DNA of 64,000 bases, from positions 107,268-171,267 of the forward strand of contig NZ_QAJM01000023.1 of assembly GCF_003852405.1 (NCBI RefSeq). Direction: 5' to 3'. Position numbers and translations under genes: made by a program. Of this stretch, positions 4,434 to 39,785 are shown in pieces; within the stretch, counting starts at the first letter, position 1; the number at the start of each line of letters is the position of its first letter. A model generated the notes under the pieces. That model was given only the letters and a program-made list of their open reading frames with translations. It ran no database searches and had not been told where the DNA came from. The stretch comes from Pseudomonas sp. KBW05. GTDB taxonomy: Bacteria > Pseudomonadota > Gammaproteobacteria > Pseudomonadales > Pseudomonadaceae.

Positions 4434-6259
4434 CCGACCAAGACAGCCAGTACTTCGCGATCCTTACCGCCATCGGTGAGGCCAAACTAGCCAACGCCAT
4501 CGCCCTCGGTACGACCTTGACCTTCGCGCAAATGGCCGTGGGCGATGCCAATGAAACCAAGCCCATCCCCAACCGCCTGCAAACCAAGCTGATCAACGAG
4601 TGTCGACGTGCGCCACTGAATCAGGTGAAGCCCGACCCGAAAAACCCCGGAGTGATCATCGCCGAGCAGGTCATCCCGGAAAGCGTCGGTGGCTGGTGGG
4701 TGCGTGAACTAGCTTTATACGATGCAGCCGGCGACATGGTCGCCATTGCCAACTGCGCGCCGACTTACAAGCCGTTGCTCTCGCAGGGTTCCGGCCGGAC
4801 GCAGGTGATTCGAATCAACCTGGTGGTCAGCAGCACGGCCAACATTGAACTGAAGATTGATCCGTCCGTAGTGCTCGCCACCCGTGAATTCGTTATCGAG
4901 GGATTCGCGCGGATCGATTCACAGGTGTTTACCGGCACGCCCAAGGCACCGACACCCGATCAATTCGATAGCAGCTCCAGGCTGGCGACGACAGAAGCGC
5001 TCTGGCGCGCTGCTGGCAGCTATCGGGGCCAATACGCTGTGGACCGTTCGTTTACGCTGTCTGTCCTGCACCTTGGACAGATTGGGCGTGTGACCGGCGC
5101 CGGCGGCTACAGCGTGACCCTGCCGCCAATGGCGGGTATTCCGCCGGGTCCGGTTATTCGAATTCTCAACGCTTCCCTGGCTGCGATCACCATCATATCG
5201 TCCGGGCCGCCCATCAGCGGCGCGGCGCTGACGCCTGAAGGCGCGGTGATTCTGCCGAGAACCGGCAGTATTGAGTTTTATTGGAACGGCGCGGCTTTGG
5301 TCGTCTGGGGCGGCACGGAAGCAATGCGTTTCGCCGGTTTTGCCGCGCTGGCCTCGCCAGACTTTACCGGTATTCCAACTGGGCCTACCGCATTGGCTGG
5401 CAGCAACAGCTATCAGTTGGCGAACGCCGCATTTGTCTGGGCAGCTGTGAACGCCTATGCCACGACGGTGACTGCCGCACTTGCGTTGAAAGCACCTCTC
5501 GCAAGCCCTGCCTTTAGCGGGGTGCCCACGGCCCCCACAGCGGCGGCAGGTACCAACACGCTGCAACTGGCAAACACGGCGTTTGTTTGGTTGGCAATCA
5601 ACACCTATGCCACCACGGTCAGTGCCTCGCTGAATTTGAAAGCGAACGTGGACAGCCCTGGTTTTACCGGAGTGCCTACAGCACCAACACCAGCCGCCGG
5701 GGCCAGTACCAAGCAGATCGCTACGGCCGAGTTCGTGCAAGCGGCGTTAGCGGCGATTGACCCATGGGCAATGGTGCCGGTTGGTTCGTATGTCCCCCTG
5801 CATGATGTCGGGTCCGTACCCGCGCCATCAAGAACCAGCCCCTTTTACAAGTACATCAGGTTGACGGCGAGCGATGGTTACAACAACCCCATCCTTGTAT
5901 CGGAATCAGTCTCCGGCACAGCGCCCGAGCTTATCGCTACAGGTGTGGTCAGCTTGGCCGGTAGTCCTTTGAATGGGGTGAGGATCAGCCTGATCAACAC
6001 CGAACGCCGAACGCTGAAAGCGGGCCTACCGGGAGTTGTAGAGCAGGATGCCTTGCAAAACATTACGGGTACGTTTGGTGGCGCTGAGGCGAGTCCGTCA
6101 ACTACCGGCGCGTTCTCTAACGGCGGATGGTTTGGCAGCGTTGCAGCAGGTGGAAACACCCGAAACGTTTTAAATTTTGATGCCTCGTTGGTTGTCAGGA
6201 CGGCCGCAGAAACCCGAGTTAAGTCTCTTGGTGTTACCTATTACTTGAGGGTCAAATAA
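4430..6259 (+). CDS. Tail fibre protein
   Basis: 609 residues from ATG 4430, which overlaps gene I by four bases; the frame is open further upstream but only as antisense-like translation inside I. The first 150 residues form the conserved tail-collar/attachment domain that anchors the fibre to the baseplate (MTDQDSQYFAILTAIGEAKL). This is followed by four copies of a fibre repeat of the form FTGxPxAPTxxAGxxxxQLA near residues 165, 310, 361 and 410. The last about 170 residues are unlike the rest and should form the receptor-binding tip that sets host range. Confidence 0.88.
   Translation: MTDQDSQYFAILTAIGEAKLANAIALGTTLTFAQMAVGDANETKPIPNRLQTKLINECRRAPLNQVKPDPKNPGVIIAEQVIPESVGGWWVRELALYDAAGDMVAIANCAPTYKPLLSQGSGRTQVIRINLVVSSTANIELKIDPSVVLATREFVIEGFARIDSQVFTGTPKAPTPDQFDSSSRLATTEALWRAAGSYRGQYAVDRSFTLSVLHLGQIGRVTGAGGYSVTLPPMAGIPPGPVIRILNASLAAITIISSGPPISGAALTPEGAVILPRTGSIEFYWNGAALVVWGGTEAMRFAGFAALASPDFTGIPTGPTALAGSNSYQLANAAFVWAAVNAYATTVTAALALKAPLASPAFSGVPTAPTAAAGTNTLQLANTAFVWLAINTYATTVSASLNLKANVDSPGFTGVPTAPTPAAGASTKQIATAEFVQAALAAIDPWAMVPVGSYVPLHDVGSVPAPSRTSPFYKYIRLTASDGYNNPILVSESVSGTAPELIATGVVSLAGSPLNGVRISLINTERRTLKAGLPGVVEQDALQNITGTFGGAEASPSTTGAFSNGGWFGSVAAGGNTRNVLNFDASLVVRTAAETRVKSLGVTYYLRVK
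5361..5760 (+). repeat. Tail-fibre coding repeats, about 150 bp period
   Basis: Three consecutive degenerate repeats within the fibre gene begin near 5361, 5512 and 5661, each coding for FTG/FSG-x-P-T-x-P-T, a QLA/QIA-TAxFV segment and a TTVxAxLxLKA linker. A fourth, more divergent copy lies upstream near 4926. Such repeats allow fibre shaft length change by recombination. Confidence 0.75.
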
Positions 6260-34073: not shown

Positions 34074-34255
34074 ATCGATTATTTCCTTATGGTTGGTCGC
34101 AATTCCTACAACGAATATCCATAACGCTACTTTAAACGCGCCCATGGATGGAATGGGCGTAGTAACAACAAATCCAACGTCATCACATCCATATCAGCTG
34201 TTTTCATCGACCAAGCCCGCCACCGAACATCCATTCCTGCTGCTCTGCCGACGTC

Positions 34256-34283
34256 TTGCGCGGTGGCCTGGCGTCTCTAGAAT
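34256..34283 (+). promoter_or_regulatory. Possible sigma-70 promoter of the Met-rich gene
   Basis: TTGCGC (34256-34261), 16-base spacer, TAGAAT (34278-34283), 47 bases upstream of the Met-rich gene start. The -10 is good, the spacing slightly short. Confidence 0.5.
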
Positions 34284-34329
34284 CGGCGCCAGAACTTAGC
34301 CATTTCCTGTCGATTACGGAGTTTCGAAC

Positions 34330-34821
34330 ATGATGAATGCAATGCAGATGCCGATGAACAACGCCATGCCAATGATGCCGATGATGGGCATGCCGATGAT
34401 GATGGCCACGATGAAGTGCGAAATGGCCGCTGACGCCATGATGTGCACCATGAAACCTGCCGCTGGCATGGACATGGCTCAGTTCAAGAACAACGCCGAG
34501 ATGATGGCGATGATGATGAACTGCGGCATGCCGATGATGATGCAGTGCGCCAATATGTCGATGATGTGCCTGTCGGCCGACGCCATGGCCATGATGAACA
34601 ACATGAACATGATGCCGATGATGGGCATGCCGATGATGAAGTGCGTGATGGAATGCACCCTGATGGCCGACAGCATGATGTGCAAAATGATGCCAATGCC
34701 CGGCATGAGCATGGCCATGATGGAAAACTGCTGCATGCTCATGAACAAGATGATGAACGACTGCGCCATGCCGATGATGATGAGCTGCAATGGCATGCCG
34801 ATGATGTGCTGCACCTGCTGA
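34330..34821 (+). CDS. Methionine- and cysteine-rich protein, possible Cu(I) binder
   Basis: 163 residues with 66 Met (40%) and 15 Cys. Start ATG 34330 with GGAG ten bases upstream. It consists of an approximate two-fold repeat: MPMMPMMGMPMM...KCEMAADAMMC in the first half and MMPMMGMPMMKCVMEC with ADSMMC in the second, each followed by a CxMPMMM(Q/S)C motif, and the end reads MPMMCCTC. No signal peptide. Met- and Cys-rich clusters are typical of copper(I) or silver(I) binding, so a cytosolic metal buffer is the main guess; no family is recognised. There is no copper exporter next to it. Confidence 0.75.
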   Translation: MMNAMQMPMNNAMPMMPMMGMPMMMATMKCEMAADAMMCTMKPAAGMDMAQFKNNAEMMAMMMNCGMPMMMQCANMSMMCLSADAMAMMNNMNMMPMMGMPMMKCVMECTLMADSMMCKMMPMPGMSMAMMENCCMLMNKMMNDCAMPMMMSCNGMPMMCCTC

Positions 34822-34842
34822 TAGGTCTAGCTCAAAGCAACC

Positions 34843-34950
34843 CTGTGGCGAGGGAGCTTGCTCCCGCTGGGGCGCGAAGCGGCCCCGCTCTTTGTCAAAA
34901 CAGACGGGGACTGCTACGCAGTCCAGCGGGAGCAAGCTCCCTCGCCACAG
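34843..34950. repeat. REPIN-type palindromic repeat pair
   Basis: Two perfect 28-base inverted arms (34843-34870 and 34923-34950; CTGTGGCGAGGGAGCTTGCT is the outer part) around a 52-base spacer containing another small inverted repeat. A second copy is at 51594-51686. This is the REPIN arrangement common in the P. fluorescens group. Confidence 0.88.
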
Positions 34951-34959
34951 GTCATCGCA

Positions 34960-35592
34960 TTAATCGAGTCTCTCGGGATACGTGATCACCAAAAACGCCA
35001 CCGCCTCACTGTCCGCCGGGTTTCGGTAGCGGTGGGGCTGGTCGGCGTAGAACAGGATCGAATCACCGGTAGACAGCAGGTAGCGCTCGTCATTGACGCT
35101 CACCTCCAGCACACCTTGGGCCACTACCAGATTTTCCTGGATACCGGGACCATGGCCTTCGGAAACTTCCTCGCCCAGTGCGCGAAGGCGGATCTCGTAG
35201 AACTCGGATTGGCGCGCCGTATCGTAGGGAAACAACGCACGGCTAATAAACGCGCCATCGGCACTCACCAGGCGCTTGCTTTGTTGCGCCGGCAACACCT
35301 CGACCCCTTCAAATGCGCGATCTTCCAGAAACGCCGCGACCGACACCTTCAAGCCCTTGGCAATCTTGCACAGCACCTTGATCGACGGCACGCTGCGCCC
35401 GGACTCGATCTGCGCCAGCATCGCGCGGCTCACACCACAGGCGCGCGCCAGGCCGTCCAGGGACAAATGCCGCTTGCCGCGCAGGCGTTGCAGATTGTGC
35501 GCGACGCACAGGCTGATGACGTCGTCATCGGAATTCGGTTTGGGCGGGGGCGCGGGAGGATCGGGCAACACATGCAGGAAATTCATCGGCAT
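34960..35592 (-). CDS. XRE family regulator with cupin domain
   Basis: 210 residues from ATG 35592 (or 35586), chosen because the stop of the tiny upstream gene overlaps it as TAATG. N-terminal helix-turn-helix of the Cro/CI type (NLQRLRGKRHLSLDGLARAC, VSRAMLAQIESGRSVPS). C-terminal cupin-like sensor (GPGIQENLVVAQGVLEVSVN, GDSILFYADQPHRYRNP). Such proteins bind an effector in the cupin and act as repressors or activators. The target is unknown; divergent TonB receptor gene is at 35973. Confidence 0.87.
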   Translation of the reverse strand: MPMNFLHVLPDPPAPPPKPNSDDDVISLCVAHNLQRLRGKRHLSLDGLARACGVSRAMLAQIESGRSVPSIKVLCKIAKGLKVSVAAFLEDRAFEGVEVLPAQQSKRLVSADGAFISRALFPYDTARQSEFYEIRLRALGEEVSEGHGPGIQENLVVAQGVLEVSVNDERYLLSTGDSILFYADQPHRYRNPADSEAVAFLVITYPERLD

Positions 35593-35750
35593 TACGCCCG
35601 GCGAGTATCGCTGGACGACGTCGCCTGTGCAGTAAACACCGCCAGCCCTGCGCGCGCCGCATACATCGCCCACATCAGCTCGGCCGCTGCGCGCGCCTGG
35701 CGGCGTTTACGGTGGAGTGTGAAGTCGATGACAGTGGCGGATGTTTGCAT
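35592..35750 (-). CDS. Small basic protein upstream of XRE regulator
   Basis: A 52-residue open frame on the minus strand (ATG 35750, TAA 35594-35592) reading TLHRKRRQARAAAELMWAMY, basic with a hydrophobic helix, and ending TSSSDTRRA. Its stop overlaps the XRE start by one base (TAATG), a strong sign of translational coupling. No function is known; it is too short for most gene finders. Confidence 0.6.
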   Translation of the reverse strand: MQTSATVIDFTLHRKRRQARAAAELMWAMYAARAGLAVFTAQATSSSDTRRA

Positions 35751-35972
35751 GGGGGCGGTCTCGTGGGGCGTGGGTGACTCAGTGGCTCCACAGTAATCTG
35801 CGCCGGTTATTTCTTTAAATACTGAGTTTGCATGTGTTAATTCGATTTTGGACTTAAGAAACGCTGTTGCACTTCGGCGCTGGTTCGTTAATCAGGAGTG
35901 ACTTGCCGGGCGTCCCTGTCTTCCCATCTGGGCCCCGCCTTTTACGTCCCCCGAATTCCAAGGACCCACCCC

Positions 35973-38084
35973 ATGTTGTTGCGCCAGCCTCCGCTCCTGT
36001 TTGCCGCCCTGACCTTAAGCTCACTGGTGCACGCCGAAGACCTGCAACTGGCCCCGGTCGAAGTCACCAGCAGCGAAGCCAGCGCCGGCGAAATCGCCGA
36101 GGCCCAGCTCAAGAGTGTGCCCGGTGGCACCAACTACATCGACATGAACAGCGTGCAGCAGGGGCGGGTCAGCACCAACGAAGACGTGTTCAAGTACCAG
36201 GCCGGTGTGTACGCCAAGGCGGCGAACAACGAAGGGGTGAAACTGTCGATCCGGGGTTCGGGCCTGAACCGCAGCCCCGGTTCCCATGGCTCGGGCTTGT
36301 ATGAAATGTTCGACGGCCTGCCGCTGACCGGCCCAGGCGGCACGCCCTATGAGTTGAAAGACCCGCTGTGGCAAAGCCGTGTCGAAGTGCTGCGCGGCGC
36401 CAACGGTTTTGATCAGGGCGCGTTGGCGTTGGGTGGCGCGGTCAACTACGTGACCCGTACCGGCTATGACGCGCCCAAGCTGCAACTGCGTTATGAGGCG
36501 GGCAGCAAAGGTTACGCCCAGCGCGAGATCAGCTCCGGCCAGGTGCTGGGAGATGCCGATTACTACATCAGCCTCACCGACTCCGAAGCCGACGGCTACC
36601 AGCGCCAGAGCGCCGCCACGGGCAAGGGCATGGCGGCCAACTTCGGCTACCGCTTCAGCCCGGAACTGGAAACCCGTTTCTATTTGCGCTACCGCGAAAC
36701 CACCAACGACACCCCGGGCAAACTCACCCGCGCGCAGATCAGCCACGACCCCCGGGCCGCCAACAGCCTCAACGCCGCCCGCGACTCCAAGCGCCTGCAA
36801 CCGGGTTCGACCTGGATCGCCAACAAGACCACCTTGCAACTGGACGACAATTCCCGCGTCGAGTTCGGTCTGGCCTACCACGACTATCCGATGGACCTGC
36901 GCGAAGGCACGATTCGCCTGAAAGTCGCCTACACCGACATCAGCAGCACCCTCAATTACATCCGCCAGGACACGTTGTTCGGCCACGACAGCAAAACCAC
37001 GATCGGCCTGCGCACCACTCAGGCGATGCCCAACAACGGTGGCGCGGAATACGTGCGCATACCGGCCGGCAACACCGCGACCTATGCCCCCGGTACCAAG
37101 ACCCGCGACTACAGCTACCTGGGCTCCGACACCGTGCTGCATATCGGTAACGACCTGGAACTGGTGCCAGACCTGTGGCTGACCACCGGCCTCGCGGCAA
37201 TCTACACTCGCCGTGAAACCGAAGTGACCTACCCGGACGCCCACGCGCCGCTAAGCCAGCACGATTGGGACTACGCGCCGCGCATCGGCCTGCGTTACGA
37301 CTTCAACCCGCAATTGCAGGTGTACGGCAACCTGAGCCGCTCGGTCGAGCCGCCGCATGCGTGGTCGATGATCTGGGGTTCCAACAAGTACTTCACCAGC
37401 GGCCCGGCCAAGGGCATGGCGCGCGAAGGCGTGAGCCTGAAAAACCAGACCGCTACCACCCTGGAAATCGGTGGGCGCGGCGAACACTGGTTCGGCCAAT
37501 GGGACCTGGCGCTGTACCGCTCCGAAGTGCGCCACGAATTGCTCACCGTGGAAACCCAGGCCCAGACAGGCACGACAAACGCCATCGTTGCCGAAAACAA
37601 CGCCAGCCCCACCGTCCACCAAGGTCTCGAATTGAGCCTGCTCAGCCTACTGTGGGACGGCGGCCGCAACGGCAAGCTCGCCCTGCGCCAGGCCTACACC
37701 TTCAGCGACTTCCACTACCGTGACGACGACCGCTTCGGCGGCAACACCTTGCCGGGCATCCCCAAGCACTACTACCAGGGGCAACTGCGTTATAGCCATC
37801 CGACGGGGTTCTACAGCAGTTTCAACACCGAGCATTCGTCAAAGGTGGCAGTGGATTACGCCAATTCCTACAACGCCGCGTCTTACACGATTATTGGCGC
37901 GACCTTCGGCTACGACGCGCCGAAACAGGACTGGCAAGCCTGGATCGACCTGCGCAACCTCACCAACCGGCGTTACGCCAACACCATCACGCCTGGGTAT
38001 GACGACAAAGGCGTGGACATGGCGCGTTCCACGCCAGCGGATGGTCGCGGTATTTACACCGGTGTGTCCTGGAGCTGGCGCTGA
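35973..38084 (+). CDS. TonB-dependent receptor
   Basis: 703 residues from ATG 35973, which gives a clean signal peptide (LLFAALTLSSLVHA, cleavage before EDLQLAP); the frame is open to 35898. Plug domain (residues ~30-145: VKLSIRGSGL, YEMFDGLPLTGPGG, RVEVLRGANG), then a 22-strand barrel ending in an aromatic-Trp tail (VSWSWR). It takes up a ferric chelate or similar ligand with TonB energy. It lacks the N-terminal ~80-residue STN signalling domain although FecI/FecR-type genes follow. Ligand not identifiable. Confidence 0.92.
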   Translation: MLLRQPPLLFAALTLSSLVHAEDLQLAPVEVTSSEASAGEIAEAQLKSVPGGTNYIDMNSVQQGRVSTNEDVFKYQAGVYAKAANNEGVKLSIRGSGLNRSPGSHGSGLYEMFDGLPLTGPGGTPYELKDPLWQSRVEVLRGANGFDQGALALGGAVNYVTRTGYDAPKLQLRYEAGSKGYAQREISSGQVLGDADYYISLTDSEADGYQRQSAATGKGMAANFGYRFSPELETRFYLRYRETTNDTPGKLTRAQISHDPRAANSLNAARDSKRLQPGSTWIANKTTLQLDDNSRVEFGLAYHDYPMDLREGTIRLKVAYTDISSTLNYIRQDTLFGHDSKTTIGLRTTQAMPNNGGAEYVRIPAGNTATYAPGTKTRDYSYLGSDTVLHIGNDLELVPDLWLTTGLAAIYTRRETEVTYPDAHAPLSQHDWDYAPRIGLRYDFNPQLQVYGNLSRSVEPPHAWSMIWGSNKYFTSGPAKGMAREGVSLKNQTATTLEIGGRGEHWFGQWDLALYRSEVRHELLTVETQAQTGTTNAIVAENNASPTVHQGLELSLLSLLWDGGRNGKLALRQAYTFSDFHYRDDDRFGGNTLPGIPKHYYQGQLRYSHPTGFYSSFNTEHSSKVAVDYANSYNAASYTIIGATFGYDAPKQDWQAWIDLRNLTNRRYANTITPGYDDKGVDMARSTPADGRGIYTGVSWSWR

Positions 38085-38103
38085 GCCTGATCCTGCGAGC
38101 CAT

Positions 38104-38216
38104 CCCCAATCCCCTGTGGGAGCGGGCTTGTCGGGCCGCCGCATCGCCGCGAAGGCGGCCTGTCAGCCAACACAGATGCAACTGACCCACCGCCATCGCA
38201 GGCAAGCCAACTCCCT
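38104..38216. repeat. REP-like sequence
   Basis: CCTGTGGGAGCGGGCTTGTC with its partial inverse AGGCAAGCCAACTCCC further right. Same family as the tandem array at 63614-64000. It separates the receptor gene from the sigma factor gene. Confidence 0.75.
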
Positions 38217-38313
38217 CCGTGATGTGTGTTGCCCAGCGGTTCTTGCTCCTACTCCGTTTTACTGGCATTCTTCGCGCAATTGGTAATATTTCCCATTTGA
38301 GAAATTTTTGCGC

Positions 38314-38856
38314 ATGCATGACATTCCTGCCGTGCTGAACGATTCAACCCGTCAGCAGACCCTTGCGGCAATGTACAGCGAGCACCACGGCTGGCTGCAC
38401 AGCTGGCTGCGCAAAAAACTGGGCTGTTCGCAAAACGCCGCCGACCTGGCCCACGACGCGTTCATCCGCGTGCTGATGCTCGCCGAGCCGCACAACATCA
38501 AGGAGCCCCGTGCCTTTCTCGCCACCACCGCCGGGCGCCTGCTGATCGATGGCGCGCGCCGCCGGCGTATCGAAAAAGCCTATATGGAAGCCCTGGTGAT
38601 CCAGTGCGAAGACGCCGGCATGCCCGACCCGGCCGCGATCCATGTGGCGCTGCAAGCCCTGGAGCGTATTGCCGAGATGCTCGCCGGCTTGCCCGCCAAG
38701 GTCCGCGAGGCGTTCCTGTTGAGCCGTCTCGACGGGCTGACCTACAGTGAGATCGCCACGCGCCTGGAGGTGTCCTCCAGCACGGTCAAAAACTACATTT
38801 CCAGTGCCCTGGTGCACTGCTACCACAGCCTGCACGCAGCCGATCCGCTGTCATGA
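38314..38856 (+). CDS. FecI-type ECF sigma factor
   Basis: 180 residues from ATG 38314 (TTG 38308 is an alternative). The sigma2 motif NAADLAHDAFIRVLM and the RAFLATTAGRLLIDGARRRR stretch are characteristic of FecI-like iron-starvation sigma factors; sigma4 has SEIATRLEVSSSTVKNYIS. It should turn on the receptor gene. Its stop overlaps the FecR-like start by four bases. Confidence 0.9.
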   Translation: MHDIPAVLNDSTRQQTLAAMYSEHHGWLHSWLRKKLGCSQNAADLAHDAFIRVLMLAEPHNIKEPRAFLATTAGRLLIDGARRRRIEKAYMEALVIQCEDAGMPDPAAIHVALQALERIAEMLAGLPAKVREAFLLSRLDGLTYSEIATRLEVSSSTVKNYISSALVHCYHSLHAADPLS

Positions 38857-39785
38857 GTTCCGAACAAATCATTCAGCAGGCAGCGAATTGGCTGACACGC
38901 CTGCACGACGAAGACGTCACCGATGCGGACCGCCAAGCCTTCCTCCTATGGTGCGACGCCGACCCACGGCATGCCGTCGCCATTGAGCGGATGCGCGGCC
39001 TGTGGGGCAGCCTGGATACGTTGCCCGCCCAGCCTGCGCGCCGAGCCCTCAACCGCGCGTTCGCGCCGCAACGCGCGCGTGCCGCCCAGGCGGTCGGTGT
39101 GCTCGGCCTGGTGCTCTGCGGTTGGATCGGCCTGCAACACCTGCCGTTGTGGATGGCCGACCAACGCACTGGCGTCGGCGAACGCCGCCAGATCGCCCTC
39201 GAAGACGGCAGCCAGCTACAGCTCAACAGCAACTCGGCGGTAGACGTGAAGTTCGACGGCCATCAGCGGGTGATCGAACTGCTGCAAGGCGAGTTGTGGG
39301 TGGAGGTGGCCAAGGATGCGCAGCGGCCGTTTGTGGTGCGCACCGACCAAGGCACGGCGACCGCGCTGGGCACCCGCTATCTGGTCAAGCGCGCGGCAGA
39401 CGGTACGACCGTGGTGACGGTGATCGAATCCACCGTGGCCGTCAAAGGTGATACCCGCGATGAGGTCAAGGTCACGGCCGGCCAGCGTGCGATCCTCGAT
39501 CACGGCCGCGCCCAACCCGCGCAAGCCACCGGCAGCGCCGACCCGGACGCCTGGACCCGTGGCCTGCTCAAGGTCAACGACCAGCCCCTCAGCGACGTCC
39601 TGCAAACCCTGGCCAGCTACCGCCACGGCATGGTGCGCTTTGATCCCCAGGCGTTGCGCAACCTGCGGGTGTCTGGGGTGTTCAAGCTCGATGACACGGC
39701 GGCGGCACTCGCGGCACTGGCGGACAATCTGCCGATCCAGGTGGAGTACTTCACCGACCTGCTGGTGGTGGTCAAGCCGCGCTAG
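38853..39785 (+). CDS. FecR-type anti-sigma factor / regulator
   Basis: 310 residues: N-terminal sigma-binding domain (LTRLHDEDVTDADRQAFLLW), one membrane helix (AVGVLGLVLCGWIGLQ, residues ~80-98), periplasmic FecR domain (~110-205, LEDGSQLQLNSNSAVDVKFD) and a C-terminal signalling domain (SDVLQTLASYRHGMVRFDPQ). It passes a signal from an outer-membrane receptor to the sigma factor. The adjacent receptor lacks the usual contact domain. Stop overlaps the convergent activator gene. Confidence 0.9.
   Translation: MSSEQIIQQAANWLTRLHDEDVTDADRQAFLLWCDADPRHAVAIERMRGLWGSLDTLPAQPARRALNRAFAPQRARAAQAVGVLGLVLCGWIGLQHLPLWMADQRTGVGERRQIALEDGSQLQLNSNSAVDVKFDGHQRVIELLQGELWVEVAKDAQRPFVVRTDQGTATALGTRYLVKRAADGTTVVTVIESTVAVKGDTRDEVKVTAGQRAILDHGRAQPAQATGSADPDAWTRGLLKVNDQPLSDVLQTLASYRHGMVRFDPQALRNLRVSGVFKLDDTAAALAALADNLPIQVEYFTDLLVVVKPR

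Follow-up and report, generated by a model that had tools for sequence, protein, structure and literature searches.

A conserved Pseudomonas protein, about half methionine and cysteine and paired with a sulfur-type regulator operon, as a candidate sulfur reserve

Bacterial reserves of carbon, nitrogen, phosphate and elemental sulfur exist, and starved bacteria cut down on methionine and cysteine, but the literature that we searched yielded neither a bacterial store of organic sulfur in protein form nor a bacterial protein of the methionine- and cysteine-rich kind described here. Plant 2S albumins and delta-zeins are very high in both amino acids and, in the excerpts available to us, are suggested to be a protein-bound store of sulfur; our protein shares this very high content with such seed storage proteins, which are eukaryotic and secretory and, as far as Pfam tells, without sequence kinship to it, whereas it is bacterial, richer in methionine, and partnered with a sulfur-starvation operon. 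The Csp fold is a four-helix bundle lined with cysteines, and with Csp proteins and metallothioneins the protein has in common its many cysteines and a chemically plausible binding of soft metals. Unlike them, it has methionine far in excess of cysteine and no Pfam match, the Csp/DUF326 family model included (Pfam and NCBIfam, E≤1). Its AlphaFold2 model, of moderate reliability (mean pLDDT 63), suggests a mixture of strands and helices instead of a helix bundle. MrpX of Azospira, likewise very rich in methionine, is reportedly a periplasmic oxidant scavenger encoded near methionine sulfoxide reductase genes; our protein differs from it in lacking a signal peptide, by reading, and in having a sulfur-type partner. 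That partner is a regulator with the same domain order as E. coli SutR (YdcN) and similarity over its full length, the name SutR standing for sulfur utilisation according to the annotation and a title cited in PMC8464067. The descriptions of SutR available to us mention no methionine- and cysteine-rich target, and the partner operon adds a small ORF and an ssu-type box. The same box is found at ssu promoters of Pseudomonas, across most of 53 positions and about as far from the start codon; there it drives scavenging enzymes, whereas here it would drive the regulator.

The window, i.e., the whole stretch of 64,000 nucleotides that was analysed, carries at 34330..34821 (+ strand) a gene with an ATG start whose 163-residue product has 81 sulfur atoms. 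An earlier note on this DNA had given the protein 66 methionines and 15 cysteines, numbers that ORF translation and our script count (which also found 0 histidines) bear out, and had described a two-fold repeat. Local alignment of residues 28-80 (34411..34569, + strand) with residues 107-160 (34648..34809, + strand) gave a BLOSUM62 score of 150, against a mean of 57.6 (sd 8.7) and a maximum of 99 for 1000 shuffles of the halves, and the 54 alignment columns held 13 identities other than Met-Met in addition to 16 Met-Met identities; the repeat is a genuine duplication. The N-terminus, MMNAMQMPMNNAMP, has no basic start, no hydrophobic stretch and nothing resembling a signal peptide by reading alone, in agreement with the earlier note, and the protein is probably cytosolic.

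The gene is coding and under purifying selection: its sense frame was open in all 98 distinct relatives, with a median dN/dS of 0.20 (590 usable of 600 random pairs), and the remaining five frames gave 0.64 to 1.43 for the same pairs. The frame-disrupting changes in relatives that the earlier note had named as grounds for doubt were looked for and not seen. A long His-rich ORF on the opposite strand (34204-34935, -) mirrors the gene, its histidines arising because ATG reads CAT on that strand, and it could mislead annotation. That this ORF is the real gene and the Met ORF its shadow has, in our estimate, almost no chance of being true: the same-register antisense frame was open in 96 of the 98 relatives, yet its median dN/dS was 1.16, which contradicts an antisense gene and makes the ORF a shadow, and it is in the sense frame that the start and the C-terminal end are conserved (98 relatives), behind a conserved promoter.

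A protein search that reads through stops found the Met gene in 40 of 200 Pseudomonas genomes and saw no internal stop in any of the 40 matches. A contig scan confirmed 114 stretches, from which 80 loci were kept, all titled Pseudomonas bar one titled gamma proteobacterium L18; with our first 30 loci, the strains of which partly overlap, these made 110. From the 110 loci we obtained 98 distinct proteins of 159-175 residues (start codons placed by hand at a conserved MMNA-like site), averaging 41% methionine and having 13-17 cysteines. In every one of the 98, methionine and cysteine together made up 45.6-52.7% of residues, or 73-91 sulfur atoms per protein. A variable linker of 17-32 residues was still 48% methionine (88 of 98 members parsed), and its composition itself looks as if it were selected. 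Profile searches placed the protein in three genomes of one other genus belonging to the same bacterial family; the 293 genomes sampled from the order and the 398 sampled from the phylum brought up no additional genus. The protein had no match at E≤1 in either Pfam or NCBIfam and none among PDB sequences; the claim that it fits no described family stands for these three collections.

Alignment of the family showed that 13 of 16 cysteine columns and 39 of 74 methionine columns were at least 97% invariant. The best-scored blocks of the AlphaFold2 model, residues 31-70 and 101-140 (pLDDT 70-86), were each predicted as a strand-strand-helix-strand-strand unit, which thus occurs twice in a model of moderate reliability, and fold searches with the model gave no significant match. 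The model suggests, with the same reserve, a folded protein with methionines in hydrophobic positions. It is on this positional invariance, together with clusters of the CxC kind and motifs like MPMMM, that a cytosolic buffer for Cu(I), Ag(I) or another soft metal can be argued, the metal being held by the invariant cysteines and the methionine clusters, a chemistry that suits Cu(I). The sulfur-linked regulator would then either save sulfur in starvation by closing down a buffer that the cell can do without, or turn the buffer on when cellular thiols fall. The copper or silver buffer was the leading guess of the earlier note, and we keep it as the main rival explanation; it gained no specific support. 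Neither Pfam nor PDB offered a relative among the metal-binding proteins, and the regulatory evidence points to sulfur. We consider it unlikely. The invariance also bears on the reading that we prefer, a sulfur reserve, as it exceeds the need of a mere store, and for the same reason the reserve may double as a holder of soft metal.

The only conserved neighbour of the Met gene, which again speaks against a metal buffer, was the operon of an XRE-cupin regulator (34960..35592, - strand), with HTH_3 and Cupin_2 domains above the Pfam cut-off and 34% identity to E. coli SutR over 177 residues. We placed its start at the ATG at 35592, although the longest ORF would begin at a GTG at 35673, because relatives start there and because this ATG overlaps the stop of a small ORF. 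In 105 of the 110 loci the regulator was the convergent neighbour of the Met gene; each time it lay on the opposite strand, at a median distance of 73 nt and never more than 2.1 kb away. At E≤1e-60 it was found in 41 of the 200 genomes, namely all 40 with the Met gene and one other (G183), a co-occurrence with a Fisher p of 2e-41, kinship ignored; the module was absent from the other 159. In the further genus we looked at two genomes, and the two genes were paired in each of them although the flanks differed. Among the five loci where no regulator was matched near the gene, one (L015) had it ~6.7 kb off in the same genome stretch (L116), in two (L027 and L100) the sequence stops 243 bases past the Met gene, and two (L061 and L085) had no regulator within ~5 kb downstream. 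L085 carries, downstream of its position 5417 and past the Met gene, near-identical tandem repeats of a few dozen bases each. Conversely, G183 has the regulator but lacks the Met gene, and of its small ORF just the end is left; ORFs that we read as transposases lie nearby.

The small ORF (35592..35750, - strand; 52 residues) is the first gene of the regulator operon, and a pattern search found it, at 52-55 residues, in 93 of 96 regions upstream of the regulator. Its 92 distinct forms gave a dN/dS of 0.40 and a cysteine content of 0.2%, and it had no Pfam match at E≤0.1. Coarse clustering of the 80 longer loci brought out no other ORF cluster present in more than 28 loci. The window's TonB-dependent receptor was near the Met gene in 41 of the 110 loci and its DMT transporter in one of 110, counts that are limited for distant neighbours by the 30 loci with only ~1.5 kb of flank. 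In the window the receptor is followed by FecI- and FecR-like genes (35898-39785), its closest NCBIfam model being PqqU, below the cut-off; the receptor gene begins on the far side of the sulfur box, in divergent orientation, so that it may come under sulfur control too.

Upstream of the small ORF we found an A+T-rich, strongly conserved box (35794..35846, - strand), which we had guessed in writing to be of the CysB type for sulfur starvation ahead of any genome scan. A sequence-only model was built from 27 boxes, the consensus leaving aside five boxes missed by the pattern and those under full length. Searched at E≤10 against the strain's own 6.5-Mb genome, the model matched twice, at its own site (45.5 bits) and at a weak second site (13 bits, E 0.56), 82 nt downstream of which ssuE lies, as a separate SsuE search showed. 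Across the 200 genomes it matched in 147 at E≤1, module boxes counted in. We followed up 61 off-module matches, made up of 44 of the 45 listed at E≤0.0214 (G017 left out), 16 weaker listed ones and the second match in the own genome, and found downstream of 54 of them either an SsuE homologue (49 of 61; 75-99% identical to the strain's own SsuE) or the NMT1-type binding protein that we call SsuA (5 of 61), mostly 45-80 nt away. Module and ssu consensus boxes, compared from a hand-picked eight and seven, agree along most of their length, and the box on the partner operon is shown to be the same as that of ssu promoters. In the part of PMC12581299 available to us, the ssu genes of P. aeruginosa are induced by sulfur starvation; presumably CysB or a close LysR relative binds the box.

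Seven off-module matches remained. One (L238) preceded a more distant SsuA-like protein (28.6% identity), and one, in G198 (L166, ~1600-2423), a regulator that shares 49.5% identity with the partner and has no Met gene next to it, a sulfur-linked XRE-cupin gene of a second type. The G198 regulator adjoins an ORF that we read as a flavin monooxygenase. In the module-less G030 (L165, ~1700-2830) 34 nt of the box (35.9 bits) are still present beside the same TonB receptor, upstream of an amino-acid-type solute-binding protein and another ORF read as a flavin monooxygenase, and seem to be the remnant of a lost module. The other four (L177, L197, L224 and L229) were of no clear kind.

The promoter-like site that the earlier note had seen upstream of the Met gene is present and conserved across relatives. 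It consists of a -35 element, TTGCGC (34256..34261, + strand), and a -10 element, TAGAAT (34278..34283, + strand), at a fixed distance, with TTG and TAGAATC near-invariant and a 16-nt spacer. CueR-type promoters have a long spacer with a dyad, and the ordinary spacer here, without a CueR-like long one, tells further against a metal buffer, as does the fact that regulator and box belong to sulfur. The ssu-type box is absent from this promoter. Just upstream of the -35 element there is a conserved dyad, AACATC-N7-GCTGCT (34226..34244, + strand), whose general form RRCAtC-N7-GCTGYT outscored every other dyad of the region when 58 non-redundant promoters were compared and was equalled in none of 200 column-permuted controls. 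An inverted repeat, GCGAGGGAGCTTGCTCCCGC and its mirror, seen by eye between the Met gene and the regulator (34842-34960), is presumably of the Pseudomonas REP element kind and may be a terminator for both genes. Since the motif of E. coli SutR is reported to be palindromic in the excerpt of PMC8464067 that we had, we regard the dyad as a candidate operator for the partner regulator. We put repression by the regulator conditionally, because a dyad upstream of the -35 element is in a frequent activator position, and activation would also suit.

Two further explanations have to be weighed against this regulatory setting. The extreme methionine content could make the protein an oxidant sink, in which peroxide or hypochlorous acid oxidises methionines that methionine sulfoxide reductases then recycle, a mechanism reportedly put forward for MrpX of Azospira, and antioxidant enzymes of P. 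aeruginosa are also induced by sulfur starvation in the part of PMC12581299 available to us; however, for such a role the ~9% cysteine would be superfluous, there is no signal peptide by reading and no conserved reductase neighbour, and the partner is under sulfur-type control, so that we think this very unlikely. Alternatively, the protein might have some other function and merely be costly in sulfur, its sulfur control serving thrift with no reserve role. The positional invariance of cysteine and methionine and the predicted fold would suit this, as would the avoidance of methionine- and cysteine-rich proteins by bacteria in sulfur starvation, observed for Rhodococcus under sulfate starvation in the excerpt of PMC8557817 that we had. 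A dedicated regulator operon for one protein and a variable linker that remains rich in methionine nevertheless suggest that the sulfur content is the point, and we rate thrift without a reserve role as quite unlikely.

We therefore return to the sulfur reserve as our preferred reading. Composition, sulfur-type box and SutR-like partner fit together, and sulfur status would, judging from these sequences, govern the module; regulator co-occurrence, off-module boxes at ssuE and ssuA, and the likeness to SutR all argue for this reading, as do the methionine plus cysteine content kept in 98 members and the methionine-rich variable linker. In sulfur plenty, the gene's own sigma-70-like promoter would produce the protein, locking up ~80 sulfur atoms per molecule. 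In shortage, the ssu-type box, through CysB or a LysR relative, would switch on the small ORF and the SutR-like regulator, which would act on the dyad at the Met-gene promoter to stop the costly synthesis, and proteolysis of existing protein would return methionine and cysteine. We infer the action of the regulator on the Met gene, the repression and the degradation for sulfur; repression is preferred because synthesis in want would cost ~80 sulfur atoms per molecule, and mobilisation is proposed by analogy with plant sulfur-rich storage proteins as described in the excerpts mentioned above. The small, almost Cys-free protein might, as a conjecture, be an adaptor sending the store to a protease. 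Against the reserve, the box sits on the regulator operon and not on the Met gene, at two loci (L061 and L085) the Met gene has no regulator in the ~5 kb downstream and two genomes (G183 and G198) have a regulator without the Met gene, the ssuE match in the own genome is weak by itself, and 159 of 200 genomes do without the module. On balance we give about an even chance to a cytosolic, folded, sulfur-rich pseudomonad protein whose production is tied to sulfur status and whose likeliest role is a sulfur reserve. For the fuller picture, that of a first dedicated bacterial sulfur bank in which a folded, repeat-built, half-Met/Cys protein is under a three-gene circuit that stops deposition in starvation, we put the chances somewhat short of even.

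Should the protein turn out to buffer metal, its sulfur-linked regulator would connect the sulfur economy with that of metals. A naturally evolved protein of ~41% methionine is also of practical interest. If the sulfur reserve is true, the module would be a way for soil and plant-associated pseudomonads to bridge sulfate-poor spells.
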